A DNA stretch of 36,479 nt. Source: an uncultured Methylococcaceae bacterium. Its GTDB lineage: Bacteria; Pseudomonadota; Gammaproteobacteria; Methylococcales; Methylomonadaceae. The DNA lies in NCBI GenBank assembly GCA_903859415.1, contig CAIOMN010000115.1, positions 1-36,479 on the forward strand, read 5' to 3'. The notes under the pieces are model-generated. The model searched no databases. It was given only the letters and a program-made list of their open reading frames with translations, and was not told where the DNA came from. This document shows positions 15,954 to 24,264 of this stretch, in pieces. Position numbers and translations under genes: made by a program. Position 1 is the stretch's first letter. Each line of letters opens with the position of its first letter.

Positions 15954-17597
15954 TTAATTGACCTCAGGAAGCCAGCGTGCCAGTTCACTATAAAGAAGGC
16001 CTGGTTCGATTGGTTTGGCTAAAAAACCGTTCATACCGGCTTCGATACAGTCATTCTGATTATCCTCGAAGGCGTTGGCAGTCATGGCAACGATCGGTAT
16101 GGACTGGCCGCAGTCAAGCTGTCTGATACAACGGGTCGCCGCCAAACCATCCATAACCGGCATCTGTATGTCCATCAGAATCAGGTCGTAGACATTGGCT
16201 TTAACCATCGAAACGGCTTCGCCACCATGATTAGCTATCTCCACCGACAAACTGTATTCTTCCAACAACATACGCCCGATTTCCTGGTTTATTTCATTGT
16301 CTTCCACCAACAGAATACGTGAACCTTTACGAATTTTCGCTTCAGGCTTATTGGAGACTTCTTGCCGCTTAAGCTCCTTATCTCGTTTCAAACAGACAGT
16401 AAACCAGAAAGTGCTACCTTGGCCTGGACTACTGACGACACCGGCATCCCCTCCCATCAGTTGAGCCAGATTGCGGCTGATAATCAGACCCAAACCCGTA
16501 CCCCCATATTGACGTGTAGTAGAGGCCTCAGCCTGCATAAATGGCTGAAACAGTTTGGCTTGTTGATCTTCACTAATACCAATACCCGTATCCTGCACTT
16601 CAAATTTCAGCGTCACGCTATCATCTTGCTCATTTTCCACTTGGGCTCGCAAGGTAATGTGACCTCGTTTAGTAAATTTGGCGGCATTACTGAGATAATT
16701 GAGCAGAATTTGACTAAGTCGTAACGGATCGCCGATGAGGGTTAAATCAATGAGTATGGAATCGATATCGTAGATTAGCTCCAACTTTCTGGATTCAATC
16801 TGATCACTCATTAAGATCCTGACTTTTTTAAGTGTATCTCCGATATTAAATCGTATCAGCTCCAGATCAATAAGTTCAGCCTCAATTTTTGACAGACTTA
16901 GTACATCATCAATAATACTCAGTAAATGTTTGGCAGAATAGTTGATCTTTTCAAGCTTGTCTATCTGTTTTGGGTCTTTAAGATCATTCTTGAGAAGGTA
17001 AGTAAAACCAAGAATAGCATTCATGGGTGTCCGTATTTCGTGGCTCATGGTGGACAGGAAAGTGCTTTTTGCCTTATTTGCGGCTTCAGATGCTTCCTTG
17101 GCTGCGATAAGTTCAGTGGTTTTTTCTTCGACTAATTTTTCAAGGTGAAAACGATAGTCTTCTAACTGCTTTTCGTTATCATGGAGTGTGCGAAACAGAC
17201 TGTATCGCTCGATAGCATTCTCGACGGCTCGAACCAGACTCTCCGGGTTCATCCAGCTTTTACTGATAAAATCCTGAGCACCCAGCTGGATCATGTTCGG
17301 GCCATTAAGCCCATTTGTAATACCCGTCACGACGACTACTGGGCAGACGAGCAATTGTGGCGCACCCAATGTCATCAAAAATTCCGGAGCATCATAGTCA
17401 GGCAGATGATAATCAAGCAGGATACAATCGGGCAGTCCTGCCTCGCTATTCAGGCAAGTGCGTAATCCTGCGGCACCCGTTTCTGCGGTGTCAAACCGGA
17501 AGCGCTCAGGTGCGCCCTTCTGCAACAGGCGCTGCATAATCTCCTGGTCTTCAGGGCTATCATCAATAATTAGTATGCGTAAGGTGTCACTCTTCAT
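15954..17597 (-). CDS. Hybrid histidine kinase, REC-HisKA-HATPase-REC
   Basis: This is a 547-residue cytoplasmic kinase with no membrane segment. A receiver domain comes first (acceptor D62 in LLDYHLP). A coiled-coil linker (about 136-178) leads to the HisKA box [11 protein letters not shown] with H186. The HATPase has [14 protein letters not shown] and GGTGLGL, and a second receiver has D476 in LMDIQMP. With no sensor of its own, its input is presumably phosphotransfer into the first receiver, so a neighbouring phytochrome kinase could feed it; this is inferred from context. Its ATG lies 2 bases after the haem oxygenase stop, so the two are translationally linked. Confidence 0.92.
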
Positions 17598-17599
17598 GA

Positions 17600-18190
17600 T
17601 TATTCGTCAGACAAAATGATCGCTGAGCACAGCCAGCGCTCCAAGGTTGTAAACGTCTCGCAAGCCGCATGTACCAGCGCATCCTCATCCACCGTCACGG
17701 CCATCAACACGGCTCTAAACGTTTGCCACATTGCCCCTGTTTGTTCACCGTAACCCGTAAAAAAGGCTGCGCCATTTTCGACTTCAAGATTGAGCAGAGA
17801 TTTAAAATGACGACTGATCACCTGCCCACCCAGTGTCGAGCCTTCCAGTACGTAAAGGCAACCCAAGGCTGAGGCAAGATCGTTGCAAATCGGAAGTTCG
17901 TGGCAAACGGGAAGCCTCTCCAGTGAATCAACCTCTACACCCAATGCTTGAAGATCCGTCTCCAGCAAGGATAATTTACTCCGCATAGCGATATCCGGTA
18001 GGCAGCCATGCAATTCGGGAACGCTGGTAAGGCTTGCTTCAAAAGGACGGTAGTAACCCCAGAAAGCCTTGATCAGGCGCCGGTAATCCTCCATTGAGAA
18101 ACTGGGAGACAGTAAATTCATATTTGTCTCAAGGCGCTGATGTAGCGGCCAAGTGGCATTTTTAAGTGTGATTAATATTTCAGTGTTCAT
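17600..18190 (-). CDS. bphO: Biliverdin-producing haem oxygenase, BphO-like
   Basis: This enzyme opens haem to biliverdin IX, iron and CO, in the cytoplasm, and biliverdin is the chromophore of bacteriophytochromes. At 196 residues it has the family length. The proximal ligand is H17 in [13 protein letters not shown], and the distal helix signature [13 protein letters not shown] sits at about 113-125. This form is typical of the BphO/HemO haem oxygenases that accompany phytochromes. The ATG has no strong ribosome site. It lies downstream of the two phytochrome genes and the receiver gene, separated by a 144-base gap holding a dispersed repeat, and is followed at 2 bases by a hybrid kinase. 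Confidence 0.9.
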
Positions 18191-18334: not shown

Positions 18335-18790
18335 TCAATCACTTCCCTCAGGCAGCATAACAGTATTAAACCAATAATGTGTTAACGCTCTTACTTTTTC
18401 TATGTAGTCTTCAAGCTTAAAAGGTTTAGTGATATAGCCAGCCGCTCCAAAACAATAACAAGCTTCGATATCAAGCGGATTATTGGACGTGGACATAATC
18501 ACGACAGGAATCGATAGCAACTGTTTCATCTTGCTTAGCTGCTCAAGCAACTGCAAACCATTTACACCGGGTAGATTGAGGTCCATCAACACCAAACACG
18601 GCAATGGATCAATCCTGTCGGCCTGAAGCAACTCCGGAAACAAATGTGTCAGTGCCACTTCGGCAGACTCAGCACGTATGACTGGACGGGTAAAACCCGT
18701 TTTTTGCAAAGCCCAACAAAAAACTTCAAAATCTTCATCAGAATCCTCTACGATCATCAGAGGACGCATTTTTTTTATTGTTTTTACCAT
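18335..18790 (-). CDS. Single-domain response regulator, phytochrome-associated (Rcp1-like)
   Basis: This 151-residue protein is a receiver domain with no output domain. The acidic pocket is E15/D16 with D18 nearby (IVEDSDED), the acceptor is D70 (VLMDLNLPG), and the conserved T/S and K are in IMSTSNNP and YITKPF. Receivers of this Rcp1-like type often serve as partners of phytochrome kinases. Its start lies 2 bases after the stop of the second phytochrome, so the pair is surely co-translated. With no effector domain it would pass the phosphate on, or signal by binding; the REC-kinase-REC protein downstream is one possible partner. Confidence 0.92.
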   Translation of the reverse strand: MVKTIKKMRPLMIVEDSDEDFEVFCWALQKTGFTRPVIRAESAEVALTHLFPELLQADRIDPLPCLVLMDLNLPGVNGLQLLEQLSKMKQLLSIPVVIMSTSNNPLDIEACYCFGAAGYITKPFKLEDYIEKVRALTHYWFNTVMLPEGSD

Positions 18791-18792
18791 CG

Positions 18793-21066
18793 TTAGCCCC
18801 TTTCTTCTGAACGATCAGGCGTCAAAGTGAAGCAAAACCTTGAACCTTTGCCCTCACCCGATTCAATCCAGATTCGCCCTCCTTGACGCATTATGGCTTT
18901 CTGAGTGATCGCAAGTCCAACACCGCTTCCACCCCCAAATTCTTTCTGTCCATGCAGGCGTTTAAACGGTTGAAAAATGTATTCGTGAAACTCGGGAGAG
19001 ATACTTATTCCATTATCCTGCACGAAAAAAATCGGTGTATCGTTAGTCGTGTAACAGCCAATTTTAAGTGCTTTCACTGCTTCACGATTGTACTTGATTG
19101 CATTCGTTATTAAGTTTTGGAATATAACTCTAAGACCAGTCTGGTTACACAGCATAACTGGCATAGCCGGTTGAATGTCGACAGTAATGTTTTCATCGGG
19201 GTTGGTCTTTTTGAGCATGTCGATAATTTCTTCCACCAGTCTATTGATCGAACAAGCCTGATAATCCTGCTCGACATTACTTATATTGGAATATTGAAGC
19301 AGTGCCTCCAAAAAATGATGCATACGGCCTGTCAAGTTTAGGATCGTCTCGACCCTTTGATGACCTTGCCCTGACAGGTGCTCGCCTTCTTCAAGTTTTA
19401 GAAGTTCAGCATAATTGTGTATACCGCGTAGCGGCTCCTTTAAGTCATGGAAAGAAGCATAAACAAAGCTGTTAAGTGCCTGATTGCTAAGCTCGAGCTC
19501 CGTGTTAAGCTGCATCAATTGGTAGGACCGTTCAACGAGGATGTCCTGCAAGCTTTGCCGCAGTTTGCTTGCATGCTCGATTTCACAGTCCTGCCAAGGG
19601 TGGGAATGGCCGCGAACGATTTCTTTCCACAAGGCAAACGATGTCCTCGGCTGCAACCGACTCTCCTGACCATCAGCGTTAATGATAACTGGTTTGTTCG
19701 GGTCGCCTGCCCAATGTGTTTCCGATAGCACCTCCGGACGAAACCACATTACCCAAGTCAAACTCGCAAGAGAAACCCGGATGGCCAACAATCCACTCGC
19801 CACGTCTGAAAAGCTCTCGGCAGAGGGAAAATCATCAGGCAAACAATGAGTTGCCAATACCACCACATCCTGTTGAACAAGCCATTTTGCAAGCAGTCCG
19901 ACCTGATGCTCAGAGGGGGTTTTACCCAGTAGAGTCACTTTACCGTCCTCAAGTAATGCTGCCCCGTCGGCATCGATCTCGTTAAGCAGGTTTATTTTGC
20001 TCCCGAATAAGGCCTCAAAGTGGGATTTGGCCCGTCCCATCTCACCAATAAGTTGACCATGCGCCTGATCTAGCCGGACTCGATAGGCAAATTGATCCAG
20101 GCTTTCCAGATCGCCAATTCGCAGTGATATCATCCGGGACAACAACTCAAGCGGAAAACGTTGCTCATAGCATAGATATTTCGGCTCGCTATGGTGCATA
20201 CAGGAAACAAGGCCCCAGAGCTTGCCCAACTTCATTAAGGGCATTACCAGAGTGGCTTTCACACCCATATTGAGCAGATAACCGGTATACATCACCGAAA
20301 CACTCCGTAAAAATGAATGGCTCAGATCAACGGGACGTCCGTCAGTCAAAGGCGACAGGTCTGGAAAGAGGGGCACGGGCACATAGTCTACATCTGGAAG
20401 ATGTCTAAGCGGGCTTAACTCGAAGAGTCGTCGAGCGGGTTCAGGCACATCACTAGCCGGATAATGCAATCCAAGATAGGCTTCCAGAGCCGCATCCTTA
20501 GCTTCGGCAACCACCTCTCCGCTACCCTCCCTGTCGAACCGGTATACCATAACCCGCTCGAAACCCGACAAAACACGTACCTGCTCAACCACGACAGACA
20601 GAAAGCTGAGTAACCCGGAGCCCCCATACAGTTGCTGAATCATATCCTGCAACCTAGAAGAGTACTCGTAGGCGGGATTCACTTTTATGGAGTCGGTGGT
20701 TCGTTCAAATTCCATTAATAACAAACCGTCGATGCGGTTGCCGGATATATGAACCACACTGTCCTGATGCGATAGAAATGGCACGGAAATCAAGTGAGTA
20801 AAAGCGCTGTTCAGATTTTTTGTAGCGAGTTGAATGCGAATGGCGGCGGTACTTTCAAAACCTAGCAACTCATCTAGGCATTGTCCCACAAGCAGTTCAC
20901 AGGGCGTGCCCAAAAAATCAGCGCTGTTGGTACTTGCCTGAACGATTCGAAGCGTCGGCTCTTCTAAAACCAGGAGCGCTCCATGAGGCTGAATCGCTCC
21001 GACAAGATGCACCTGCTCGCGGTCGCAACTACTTAGATCCACGTTCTTTACAGTCACTTCAGTCAT
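18793..21066 (-). CDS. Bacteriophytochrome histidine kinase, second of a tandem pair
   Basis: This is a 757-residue red/far-red photoreceptor kinase with domains PAS, GAF, PHY, HisKA and HATPase. The biliverdin cysteine is C14 (LSSCDREQVH). PASDVP gives D206, and Y175, R254, S257 and Y263 match Deinococcus BphP positions (176, 254, 257, 263). The PHY tongue has PRTSF. The kinase has FHDLKEPLR, NLITNAIKY and GGGSGVGLAI. Against Deinococcus BphP, H260 is Y260 and H290 falls on M290, with HH directly after. I chose ATG 21066, whose first bases overlap the upstream stop (ATGACTGA); a longer frame to 21168 would lie wholly within the upstream gene. Confidence 0.92.
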   Translation of the reverse strand: MTEVTVKNVDLSSCDREQVHLVGAIQPHGALLVLEEPTLRIVQASTNSADFLGTPCELLVGQCLDELLGFESTAAIRIQLATKNLNSAFTHLISVPFLSHQDSVVHISGNRIDGLLLMEFERTTDSIKVNPAYEYSSRLQDMIQQLYGGSGLLSFLSVVVEQVRVLSGFERVMVYRFDREGSGEVVAEAKDAALEAYLGLHYPASDVPEPARRLFELSPLRHLPDVDYVPVPLFPDLSPLTDGRPVDLSHSFLRSVSVMYTGYLLNMGVKATLVMPLMKLGKLWGLVSCMHHSEPKYLCYEQRFPLELLSRMISLRIGDLESLDQFAYRVRLDQAHGQLIGEMGRAKSHFEALFGSKINLLNEIDADGAALLEDGKVTLLGKTPSEHQVGLLAKWLVQQDVVVLATHCLPDDFPSAESFSDVASGLLAIRVSLASLTWVMWFRPEVLSETHWAGDPNKPVIINADGQESRLQPRTSFALWKEIVRGHSHPWQDCEIEHASKLRQSLQDILVERSYQLMQLNTELELSNQALNSFVYASFHDLKEPLRGIHNYAELLKLEEGEHLSGQGHQRVETILNLTGRMHHFLEALLQYSNISNVEQDYQACSINRLVEEIIDMLKKTNPDENITVDIQPAMPVMLCNQTGLRVIFQNLITNAIKYNREAVKALKIGCYTTNDTPIFFVQDNGISISPEFHEYIFQPFKRLHGQKEFGGGSGVGLAITQKAIMRQGGRIWIESGEGKGSRFCFTLTPDRSEERG

Positions 21067-23374
21067 GAGGGTCCCCGTCATTATCGGCAGAAAATACAAG
21101 GCCGGAACCCAGCGTAAAATAAAAGGTTGTCCCTTGTCCGGGCGTCGATTCCAGCCACAGACAACCACCGTGTCGTTCGATATGCTTACGCGTTATCGCG
21201 AGCCCTGCCCCAGTGCCACCACCATAATCGTTGCGGCCGTGCAAACGGCGAAAAATAGTAAAAATCTTATCATAAAATTTCTCTGGGATGCCTATGCCAT
21301 TGTCCCGAACGAAGAAGGTAAGCGTTGGGTTTTCGAGACATCCTATCTCGATCCGCCGTTCAGCCTGATCGTTATATTTTATGGCATTCGTAATCAGATT
21401 GCTGAACACGGATGCCAACCGGATCCGATCACAGGCCAAGGTAGGCAAAGTCTGGGAGATTTGAATCTGTGTTTCTGTGTTTTTGATAGTGGCAGACAGA
21501 TCCTCAAGAACGCTATGCAATAGCAGATTAAGATCCACTAACTGCACGACCAGTGGTTGTTGACTCGCGCGTGAATATTGCAAGAGGGCATTAATCTGAT
21601 GACTCATCCTACCACTCAGATTCAGAATAGTATTCAGCCAGCTGAGTTCCTGCTGCCCAATTTTCCCGCTAGAGCTATCCACTAAAATTTGAGCGAAATT
21701 ACTAATACCACGAAGGGGCTCCTGAAGATCATGAGAAACAATGTACGCAAATGCTTCGAGCTCAGCATTACTTTGTGCTAATTGGGATCTTAGGACCCGC
21801 TGATTTTCAGTGTACTGCAATTGGATAACAGCCTGTTGTAGATCGGTGAGCGCTTCGATCTCATAAAATTGCCAGGCCCGTGCTGTCCCTCTCATTTCCT
21901 GTTTCCAAACCTCAAAAGAACCACGCGGCGTAAACCGCTCCTCACCGCTGACCACATCAATCTCAATCTGCTTCAAAGGATTTCCTGCCCATTTGACTTC
22001 ATGCACATGTTCTGGCCGAAAACAAAGTATATACTGACCCGATTCCATCAAACACCCGGCAAGTAGGCCGGTCGCTTGTCCCAAAGACTGGGTGGTGGAC
22101 CCGAACAACGTAGGCAGTCTATCGGTTGTAAACAAGGACTGACCCTGTTCATCCAGCCATGAAATTAGGGCTTGAATGACCGTGGCTTCAGGGGTAACGC
22201 CTGCACAGAGGATTTTACTATCCAAACAGAGCGCGACACCAGTGACGTCGAGATTGTCGAGTACCTGTTCAGGTAACTGAATCAACACGTCAGAAAATAC
22301 ATCGGCAGAAGACAGTTCGGCAGCGATTTTGCTTATTCTGCGCTTGATCTGAAGCGCGTCTTGTAACTGCTCGGCTCGTTCTTTTTCAACTAACAAAAGT
22401 GCAGACATTTCTGCAAATAATTTAAGCACAAGGCGGTCGGAATAGACCACCTGGCGAGGCGTCGCGTTTTTGCAGCTAAAGAAGCCCCACAGCTCTCCTT
22501 GATCCACTAAGGAAATAACCAGTCGTGATTGCACACCCATATTTCGATAAAAACGGCGGCACATCGGGGATATACTGCGAAGTACAGCAAAACCAAGGTC
22601 TATCTGCAAAGGCTCGTGGGCCTGATCAGCAATAACCAGGGGTACTGGCTCGTAGTCCAGGTCCAGAGCATACTGCAAGGGCATCAAGAGCATCTGTCGG
22701 CGGGCGGGTTCAGGGATATCGGAGCGAGGAAAACGCTTGTCGAGAACAGAAGGAAAATACGATTCGCACGTTTCAGCGATGGCATGGAAAGAACCATCAT
22801 CAAGAAACCGGGCGCCTACTACCGAATCGAAACCGGTCAGCCGTTTTAATTCACGGGCACCAATAGCCATGCCTTCCTCCCAGGTTTCAGCGGCATGCAG
22901 CCTACTGATGCACTCGGAGACCTCGGCCATGCGTCCAGTCGACCCATTTTCTGCCACTTCAGCAGGGATGGCTTCGAACTCAACTATGAAAACATCGCAG
23001 GATCGGTGAGCGAAAACATCAAACCGATGGTTGCCTTGCGCAGGTTGAAAGCTGCCGAGATAGCGAGGAAGCTCTGGTTCGGTGATGTGTGCCAGACTTG
23101 TCTCCAACGTCTGCTGTATGTCGGGGGCAACGATCCGGTCAAGATGACAATGCAAAAGCTGTTCTACGTCGCAACCGAACCAAAAGCCGGTGTTCGCGCT
23201 GGCACCCAAAATGCGAAAGTCGCTAAGGGTTAAAATGAGCAAAACCCCATGCGGCATAATGGCGCCCGGAAATTGCACCTGCTCGCCATCACAGTGGGTC
23301 AAGTCTACCGGTTCTCTTGAAACCTGATTAACCCAGGATTTAGAGGTAGATGCCCATACTTCCGAATTATCCAT
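21059..23374 (-). CDS. Bacteriophytochrome-like histidine kinase with altered chromophore pocket, first of a tandem pair
   Basis: This 771-residue protein has the PAS-GAF-PHY-HisKA-HATPase layout. The biliverdin cysteine is C28 (THCDGEQVQ). PRSDIP gives D219, R266 and S269 are kept, and the PHY tongue has PRGSF. The kinase has SHDLQEPLR, NLITNAIKY and GGGTGAGLAI. The pocket is unusual. With a constant +12 offset to Deinococcus BphP, A188 replaces Y176, C272 replaces H260, F275 replaces Y263, R284 and V286 replace S272 and S274, and K302 replaces H290. Biliverdin may bind, but normal photoconversion is doubtful. ATG 23374 has AAGGA at seven bases; TTG 23380 is too close to that site. Confidence 0.92.
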   Translation of the reverse strand: MDNSEVWASTSKSWVNQVSREPVDLTHCDGEQVQFPGAIMPHGVLLILTLSDFRILGASANTGFWFGCDVEQLLHCHLDRIVAPDIQQTLETSLAHITEPELPRYLGSFQPAQGNHRFDVFAHRSCDVFIVEFEAIPAEVAENGSTGRMAEVSECISRLHAAETWEEGMAIGARELKRLTGFDSVVGARFLDDGSFHAIAETCESYFPSVLDKRFPRSDIPEPARRQMLLMPLQYALDLDYEPVPLVIADQAHEPLQIDLGFAVLRSISPMCRRFYRNMGVQSRLVISLVDQGELWGFFSCKNATPRQVVYSDRLVLKLFAEMSALLLVEKERAEQLQDALQIKRRISKIAAELSSADVFSDVLIQLPEQVLDNLDVTGVALCLDSKILCAGVTPEATVIQALISWLDEQGQSLFTTDRLPTLFGSTTQSLGQATGLLAGCLMESGQYILCFRPEHVHEVKWAGNPLKQIEIDVVSGEERFTPRGSFEVWKQEMRGTARAWQFYEIEALTDLQQAVIQLQYTENQRVLRSQLAQSNAELEAFAYIVSHDLQEPLRGISNFAQILVDSSSGKIGQQELSWLNTILNLSGRMSHQINALLQYSRASQQPLVVQLVDLNLLLHSVLEDLSATIKNTETQIQISQTLPTLACDRIRLASVFSNLITNAIKYNDQAERRIEIGCLENPTLTFFVRDNGIGIPEKFYDKIFTIFRRLHGRNDYGGGTGAGLAITRKHIERHGGCLWLESTPGQGTTFYFTLGSGLVFSADNDGDPHD

Positions 23375-24000: not shown

Positions 24001-24024
24001 TTCTGATAGTTTTGTACCAGCGCT

Positions 24025-24264
24025 TTGAGTGTGCTCACTCACAGTCCGGGGACAGGCACCAGAGAGTCGAGTACTGTTCCTGCTGCAATCGAAGAAGTGT
24101 TAACTACCATTAGCCGTGAGAAACCGGATTTTGTCTTCGCGCCGCATGTTGAAACCTCGGCGGGCATGATTCTTCCCGATGACTACGTGCGTGCTATAGC
24201 TGATGCAATACACGCTGTGGGTGGCTTACTGGTACTCGATTGCATCGCGTCCGGTACCATCTGA
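24025..24264 (+). pseudogene. Remnant of a class V aminotransferase gene
   Basis: The frame encodes about 60 residues (from about 24076) that read like the centre of a class V aminotransferase: PDFVFAPHVETSAGMILPDD, then YVRAIADAIHAVGGLL and VLDCIASGTI. This is the cofactor-pocket region of alanine-glyoxylate/serine-pyruvate type enzymes, which are normally about 370-400 residues long. Both ends are missing. A TGA follows directly where family members usually continue with a tryptophan, and downstream frames show no more homology. The only available start is TTG without a ribosome site. I read it as a gene scar, not a functional small protein. Confidence 0.7.

Follow-up and report, generated by a model that had tools for sequence, protein, structure and literature searches.

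Gene layout at the phytochrome locus

Two phytochrome kinase genes lie in tandem at the locus, on contig C115 in the 3.7 Mb genome of an uncultured Methylococcaceae bacterium. The window, meaning the whole stretch of DNA that was analysed (36,479 nucleotides), corresponds to this contig. Five minus-strand genes make up the locus: phyA, phyB, and genes for a response regulator, a heme oxygenase and a hybrid kinase (Table 1). The phyA gene starts with ATG, with an in-frame TTG two codons upstream, and its product matched the Pfam families PAS_2, GAF, PHY, HisKA and HATPase_c over their cut-offs. Read from its ATG, phyB overlaps the stop-codon end of phyA by 8 nt. No match to the bilin reductase family PF05996 was found in the source genome, and on this ground the use by PhyA of a different, reductase-made bilin was rejected. 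In the gap upstream of phyA, an 84-codon open stretch on the plus strand (24010-24261), which may resemble a fragment of a class V aminotransferase, is perhaps a gene remnant.

Table 1. Coordinates of the genes, domains and codons at the phytochrome locus.
Feature	Coordinates	Strand	Remarks
phyA, phytochrome kinase with re-tooled pocket	21059..23374	-	PAS-GAF-PHY-HisKA-HATPase; 771 aa
Codon of C28 (DrBphP C24, bilin-binding Cys, PAS domain)	23291..23293	-	computed from gene start
PhyA GAF domain region	22385..22954	-	residues 141-330; K213, R217, M228, Q234, R266, S269, C272, R284, K302
Codon of C272 (DrBphP H260 position)	22559..22561	-	Cys in 15/15 PhyA-type proteins
PhyA PHY tongue region	21875..22009	-	residues 456-500, with PRGSF
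PhyA histidine kinase core	21104..21802	-	residues 525-757; H548, N663, D691, G695, G722, G724
phyB, partner phytochrome kinase	18793..21066	-	757 aa from ATG
Single-domain response regulator	18335..18790	-	
Heme oxygenase	17600..18190	-	sole PF01126 match in source genome
Hybrid kinase	15954..17597	-	two receiver domains, HisKA, HATPase

Judged by its architecture and descent, PhyA is a bacteriophytochrome kinase, and its pocket lies outside the canonical definition. The NCBIfam equivalog NF041576 is a narrow model, and both proteins scored below its cut-off of 1040 bits (PhyA 179, PhyB 302). Foldseek confirmed the phytochrome fold and nothing further, with 8upk_A as the best match. The AlphaFold model of PhyA had a mean pLDDT of 73.3, with values below 50 in the tongue (residues 461-475 and 477-494), which is not resolved, and that of PhyB had a mean of 60.5; as models, they are uninformative on the Pr versus Pfr state.

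Pocket residues of PhyA and their conservation

PhyA aligns to DrBphP at a constant offset of +12 from Y176 to H290, and phmmer alignments to PDB chains agree with this through the pocket. The original prediction had described a phytochrome that has lost most of its chromophore-contact residues, and all of the substitutions that it named, as well as the offset, were real by this alignment, but its list was incomplete and lacked H201K, A205R, Y216M and R222Q. The full set of changes (DrBphP residue in parentheses) is A188 (Y176), K213 (H201), R217 (A205), M228 (Y216), Q234 (R222), C272 (H260), F275 (Y263), R284 (S272), V286 (S274), K302 (H290), and N303 (H291). A shifted alignment was rejected, as there is no gap between R254 and N265, which aligns C272 with His260 rather than with the cyanobacterial Cys259. 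The alignment also agrees with the predicted retention of the chromophore cysteine C28 (C24), D219 (D207), R266 (R254), S269 (S257), and the tongue PRGSF, to which I208 and P209 can be added, and of an intact kinase (H548, N659, N663, D691, G693, G695, G720, G722, and G724).

None of the eight residues of the canonical GAF pocket (Tyr176, Tyr216, Arg222, His260, Tyr263, Ser/Thr272, Ser/Thr274, and His290) is present in PhyA. On a list of 12 canonical contacts, PhyA-type proteins keep 4-5 (n = 15) and PhyB-type proteins 6-10 (n = 17, the lowest value being that of a protein cut by a contig end), against 9-12 in 53 other phytochromes, DrBphP included. Among the 33 canonical BphPs that the class and phylum searches yielded, which include one of the source genome, Y176 and R222 were each present in 33/33, H260 in 32/33, and H290 in 29/33, and His260 is termed strictly conserved in a DrBphP paper (PMC7164956). 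Given how far these counts and frequencies differ from those of PhyA, its substitution set is far outside the usual BphP range. A cysteine at 260 also occurs outside PhyA, in a phytochrome of genome G130 (L097, 2449-4848; SPMC) that keeps Tyr176 and His290.

The new residues are themselves conserved. Across the 15 PhyA-type sequences, positions 24 (Cys), 201 (Lys), 207 (Asp), 216 (Met), 254 (Arg), 257 (Ser), and 260 (Cys) are invariant (15 of 15 each), and little variation is seen at 205 (Arg in 13, His in 1, Lys in 1), 222 (Gln in 14, Val in 1), and 272 (Arg in 14, Lys in 1). Position 274 has Val in 11, Leu in 3, and Ile in 1. The D-ring sites are loose, namely 176 (Ala in 5, Val in 4, Leu in 2, Thr in 2, Asn in 2), 290 (Lys in 9, Trp in 4, Leu in 2), and 263 (Phe in 11, Tyr in 4), and sites 186 and 198 at the D-ring end vary as well. 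Mean entropy over five D-ring sites was 1.50 bits in PhyA-type proteins versus 0.43 in the 53 other phytochromes, whereas over eight centre and propionate sites it was 0.22 versus 0.39. In DrBphP, Ser272 and Ser274 anchor the C-ring propionate, Arg254 and Ser257 anchor the B-ring propionate, and His290 is part of a water network at the D-ring carbonyl (PMC7164956); in Cph1, His260 is positioned at the alpha face of rings B and C, some 3.9 Å from ring-C carbons (PMC11924222). Taken together, the site variation and the published contact roles show that the light-isomerising end of the pocket has been relaxed, while the central and propionate end has been rebuilt and fixed.

Only six positions (36, 216, 222, 260, 272, and 286) are invariant in the 14 tandem PhyA proteins and fixed for another residue in at least 30 of the 33 canonical BphPs. 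Four of the six (216, 222, 260, and 272) are on a pocket list of 34 positions (hypergeometric P 6.5e-5), and invariant positions make up 15/34 of the PhyA pocket versus 50/262 elsewhere in PAS-GAF (Fisher P 0.002), where both P values, from about 700 columns, treat related columns and rows as independent. The 15/34 invariant pocket positions of PhyA are fewer than the 23/34 of PhyB. Further along the protein, the tongue motif RGSF is found in 15/15 PhyA-type sequences, with the preceding proline replaced by alanine in G126, G104, G124, and G289, and nine kinase residues are invariant in 14/14 tandem PhyA proteins. On sequence grounds, the PhyA pocket is re-tooled and not decayed. The original view of a conserved kinase behind a sensor that lacks the classical D-ring contacts is thus upheld, but the wording of a loss is not, as a new and nearly invariant set has replaced the old pocket.

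Relatives, partner gene, and descent

PhyA-type genes were found in 5/35 genomes of the genus, 9/237 of the family (a count that includes a fused form), and 13/301 of the order, in sets that overlap. A scan of genome contigs gave 12 loci, five of them PhyA-type, and the remaining seven matched in the kinase. Tandem PhyA-type genes total 14, one of which (Ki0573) is cut by a contig end; all are from two families of Methylococcales, and five are from the source genus. A sixth close orthologue (Kiruna, G238) belongs to another genus of the same family. The 15 PhyA-type rows include the near-identical pairs AMbin140/VK0278, G086/G115, and G104/G124 and thus represent about 12 lineages. No PhyA-type gene outside Methylococcales was seen among the best hits of searches of the class (369 genomes) and phylum (398 genomes), which comprised 33 proteins at about 275 bits or more, PhyA-type genes scoring at least 398 bits. 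A plasmid search, of whose 3024 records one was inspected, gave no match of at least 60% identity. In genome G017, a second PhyA-type copy (L050, 6508-8876) is split into two overlapping frames and is either a pseudogene or an assembly error.

A PhyB-type gene adjoins phyA in 14/14 cases and in one orientation, with PhyA leading in 12 pairs and PhyB in the other 2. A putative in-frame start that overlaps the stop codon of the gene before it is present in 8/13 tandem operons, not including that of G272. In the stretches examined, some of which end early with their contigs, a response regulator was near the pair in 13/14 and a heme oxygenase in 9/14; the latter was not seen in the examined stretches of G126, G086, G115, G272, and G169 and may lie elsewhere in these genomes.

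PhyB keeps C24, Y176, R222, R254, and Y263 and carries Tyr260 together with Phe216, a combination found in nearly all PhyB-type members. Most of these also have an extra residue after C289, which makes the residue at 290 uncertain. As PhyB keeps Y176, R222, and R254, it is the likelier candidate for a photoactive partner, to go by its residues. A tyrosine at the His260 site was seen in PhyB-type and several other Methylococcales phytochromes (loci L081-L094, L098, and L132), mostly together with Phe216 and Val258, with one further case outside the order (G895). The source PhyB has a serine (S688) for the second glycine of the DNGIG box (DNGISIS), which is glycine in the other 16 PhyB-type proteins.

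In a tree built without the pocket columns, the 14 PhyA proteins formed one clade (100/100), so that, on a point that the original prediction had left to alignment and phylogeny, the substitutions are shared by a single clade. Its sister group comprises PhyB and the BphP of G130 (support of 100/98 for the joint clade), and the PhyA stem is long, at 1.02 changes per column. Eight rows, namely both pieces of the split paralogue from G017, four REC-kinases, and two other ORFs, were omitted from tables and trees, and the four REC-kinases and the C-terminal G017 piece were restored for the kinase tree. Against four orthologues, dN/dS was 0.12-0.22 for PhyA and 0.13-0.16 for PhyB, and mean identity of the catalytic domain was higher in PhyA (70.0%) than in PhyB (60.8%). 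These sequences suggest a duplication, then a burst of change, then constraint in the history of PhyA.

According to its sequence and NCBIfam matches, the G289 protein, which carries the fifteenth PhyA-type sensor, is a fusion with a different hybrid kinase. The fusion gene overlaps that of the sole heme oxygenase found in G289, and no other PHY protein was found in this assembly, which is 73% complete, so that a PhyB could be missed. Without the pocket columns, and with 16 near-duplicate or long-branch rows left out, the sensor was placed in the PhyA clade at 100/100, where it may be nested or basal (AU p 0.33 for a clade of the remaining members). Three REC-HD kinases fell within the PhyA kinase clade in the kinase tree (98/98; inner node 95/86); those of G159 and G149 lie just before phyB, in the place of phyA, and the one in G016 borders a contig end. 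Kinases with the architecture REC-HD-HisKA-HATPase and a PhyA-clade kinase core were noted at L089 (10340-12133), L090 (10551-12335), and L052 (5999-7825). Given the REC-HD kinases and the G289 fusion, both the PhyA kinase core and the PhyA-type sensor have each been joined to other parts.

Possible inputs of PhyA and comparison with known systems

We favour, at a probability of about 0.5, a reading in which the PhyA clade, found here only in Methylococcales, consists of neofunctionalised kinases that retain a bilin in a changed pocket, lack the classical D-ring switch, and feed a regulator together with PhyB. An old duplication of a phytochrome gene would have given rise to PhyB and to the neofunctionalised kinase PhyA. 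PhyA would hold the product of the heme oxygenase, most likely biliverdin on C24, to judge by the retention of C24, D207, R254, and S257 and by the heme oxygenase gene that is often adjacent, also in G289; since C24 belongs to a structural motif that is itself conserved, its retention alone is a weak argument. Selection would not be maintaining classical Pr/Pfr switching at the D-ring in PhyA, whose stimulus is probably not ordinary red/far-red light. PhyA would be light-inert, locked, colour-shifted, or controlled by a ligand or by thiol chemistry. Candidate gates for its kinase are a thiol reaction at C260, another ligand held by the basic residues, a change in the colour of light sensed, or PhyB, whose light state would act on PhyA within a mixed dimer. 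PhyA and PhyB would feed the shared response regulator, possibly as a heterodimer. Points that count against this reading are the 5/14 operons whose examined stretches showed no heme oxygenase, the smaller number of invariant pocket positions in PhyA than in PhyB, and the activity of SaBphP1 despite its lack of His290 (PMC6126659). That the rebuilt sensor may have an input of its own is suggested mainly by the G289 fusion.

Published variants at Y176 bear on a locked and on a fluorescent PhyA. When this residue is changed, Cph1 combines a Pr-like chromophore with a Pfr-like tongue, and plant phyB signals constitutively (PMC11924222), effects with which a locked PhyA would fit. The fluorescent sensor proposed earlier is disfavoured by precedent, as the gain in fluorescence of Y176H, known for Cph1 and a plant phytochrome, is reported to be absent in bacteriophytochromes (PMC11924222).

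One alternative, possible though improbable, is a bilin-free sensor whose pocket binds another small molecule, probably anionic, through K201, R205, R254, and R272 and gates the kinase without light. These four basic residues, all on one side of the pocket, are fixed or nearly so, in contrast to the variable D-ring side, and small residues at 176 and 260 change its shape. Such a sensor would leave C24 and the neighbouring heme oxygenase (9/14, plus G289) without a role, and no candidate ligand for the pocket has emerged.

It is somewhat less likely that PhyA is only the kinase half of a PhyA-PhyB heterodimer, with the light state of PhyB as the sole input. The constant adjacency of phyB (14/14), the possible stop/start overlaps (8/13), the better conserved catalytic domain of PhyA (70.0 versus 60.8% mean identity), and the PhyA-clade REC-HD kinases that precede phyB in G159 and G149 are consistent with such a subunit, as is the formation of heterodimers in vitro by the tandem RpBphP2 and RpBphP3 (PMC12329595). 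Co-expression of the Ramlibacter phytochromes, on the other hand, is reported to have given no heterodimer (PMC6848086), and a passive pocket would not retain a new invariant set. The passive pseudo-sensor serving PhyB, which was among the earlier suggestions, is weakened by G289, where the sensor sits on another kinase and no other PHY protein was found in the 73% complete assembly.

We consider it similarly unlikely that PhyA, as a natural His260-to-Cys phytochrome, uses C260 and C24 to form a second, reversible adduct with the bilin or to act as a thiol switch, and that a mixed dimer combines this signal with that of PhyB in its light state. If true, the phytochrome scaffold and tongue would be driven by thiol chemistry at the central rings, blue-shifted or redox-gated, in place of D-ring isomerisation.

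Slightly less likely again is an ordinary photoactive bacteriophytochrome that undergoes Pr/Pfr conversion with shifted spectra despite its odd pocket. C24, D207, R254, S257, the tongue, and the kinase are all kept, Tyr260 is tolerated in PhyB-type and other Methylococcales proteins, and SaBphP1 is active without His290 (PMC6126659), which counts against calling PhyA light-dead from its sequence. Against this stand the joint replacement of Tyr176, Tyr216, Arg222, His260, Ser272, Ser274, and His290, the freedom of the D-ring sites, and the retention of Tyr176 (33/33) and His260 (32/33) by canonical BphPs. A decaying, functionless copy, which the many missing canonical residues and the split G017 paralogue might suggest, is refuted for the PhyA clade by dN/dS of 0.12-0.22 and by conservation, as 14 tandem genes are open (one cut by a contig end), nine kinase residues are invariant in 14/14, and the new pocket set is conserved.

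A whole clade has swapped His260 and its neighbours for a new fixed set while kinase and tongue stay strongly constrained. The clade is thereby a natural experiment that sets pocket residues needed for light switching against those needed for signal transfer to the kinase, and with PhyA and PhyB the methane-oxidising bacteria supply a two-component phytochrome pair that is open to testing. We found no publication on phytochromes of these bacteria by title or start of abstract, though supplements and subscription papers may hold some. Our literature search likewise found none on an 'achromophoric' phytochrome, and the term 'pseudophytochrome' was not used among the matches listed, from literature of 2025 on.

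Several characterised systems share parts of this arrangement. In Rhodopseudomonas palustris, RpBphP2 and RpBphP3 are likewise encoded by two neighbouring phytochrome kinase genes, and the RpBphP3 sensor (4r70) is a PDB relative of PhyA. RpBphP3 has unusual photochemistry, from Pr to Pnr (PMC6126659), and light-quality sensing is described as dispensable for one response (PMC6879726). Both proteins bind biliverdin and respond to light, and a rebuilt pocket like that of PhyA is not reported in the portions of these papers available to us. The RtBphP1 locus of Ramlibacter tataouinensis likewise combines a phytochrome kinase with a heme oxygenase, a CheY-like regulator, and an atypical hybrid kinase (PMC6848086). 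Unlike the tandem PhyA/PhyB layout, however, the phytochromes of this organism are encoded at two separate loci, and both bind biliverdin and photoconvert. SaBphP1 of Stigmatella aurantiaca has naturally lost the conserved pocket histidine, its Thr289 taking the place of His290, and the organism also has a second, canonical BphP (PMC6748860, PMC6126659). In this case only one pocket residue is changed, compared to about ten in PhyA, and the protein is still Pr/Pfr photoactive (PMC6126659).

The top PDB sequence match of the PhyA sensor was FiDCB (9jry, 252 bits), a dual-cysteine cyanobacterial phytochrome, and each of the two proteins has one cysteine in PAS and one in GAF. In FiDCB the GAF cysteine is at 259 and is followed by His260, with the HH motif kept, whereas PhyA has M271 at 259 and C272 in place of the histidine at 260, and PhyA was on this basis rejected as a dual-cysteine phytochrome of the FiDCB type. 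RpBphP4, of the light-to-redox type, has in a 2007 study reportedly abandoned classical light sensing in favour of a different input and is said to have lost the chromophore cysteine of its PAS domain. PhyA differs from this type in that the PAS cysteine is kept in 15/15 sequences and it is the GAF pocket that is altered instead.
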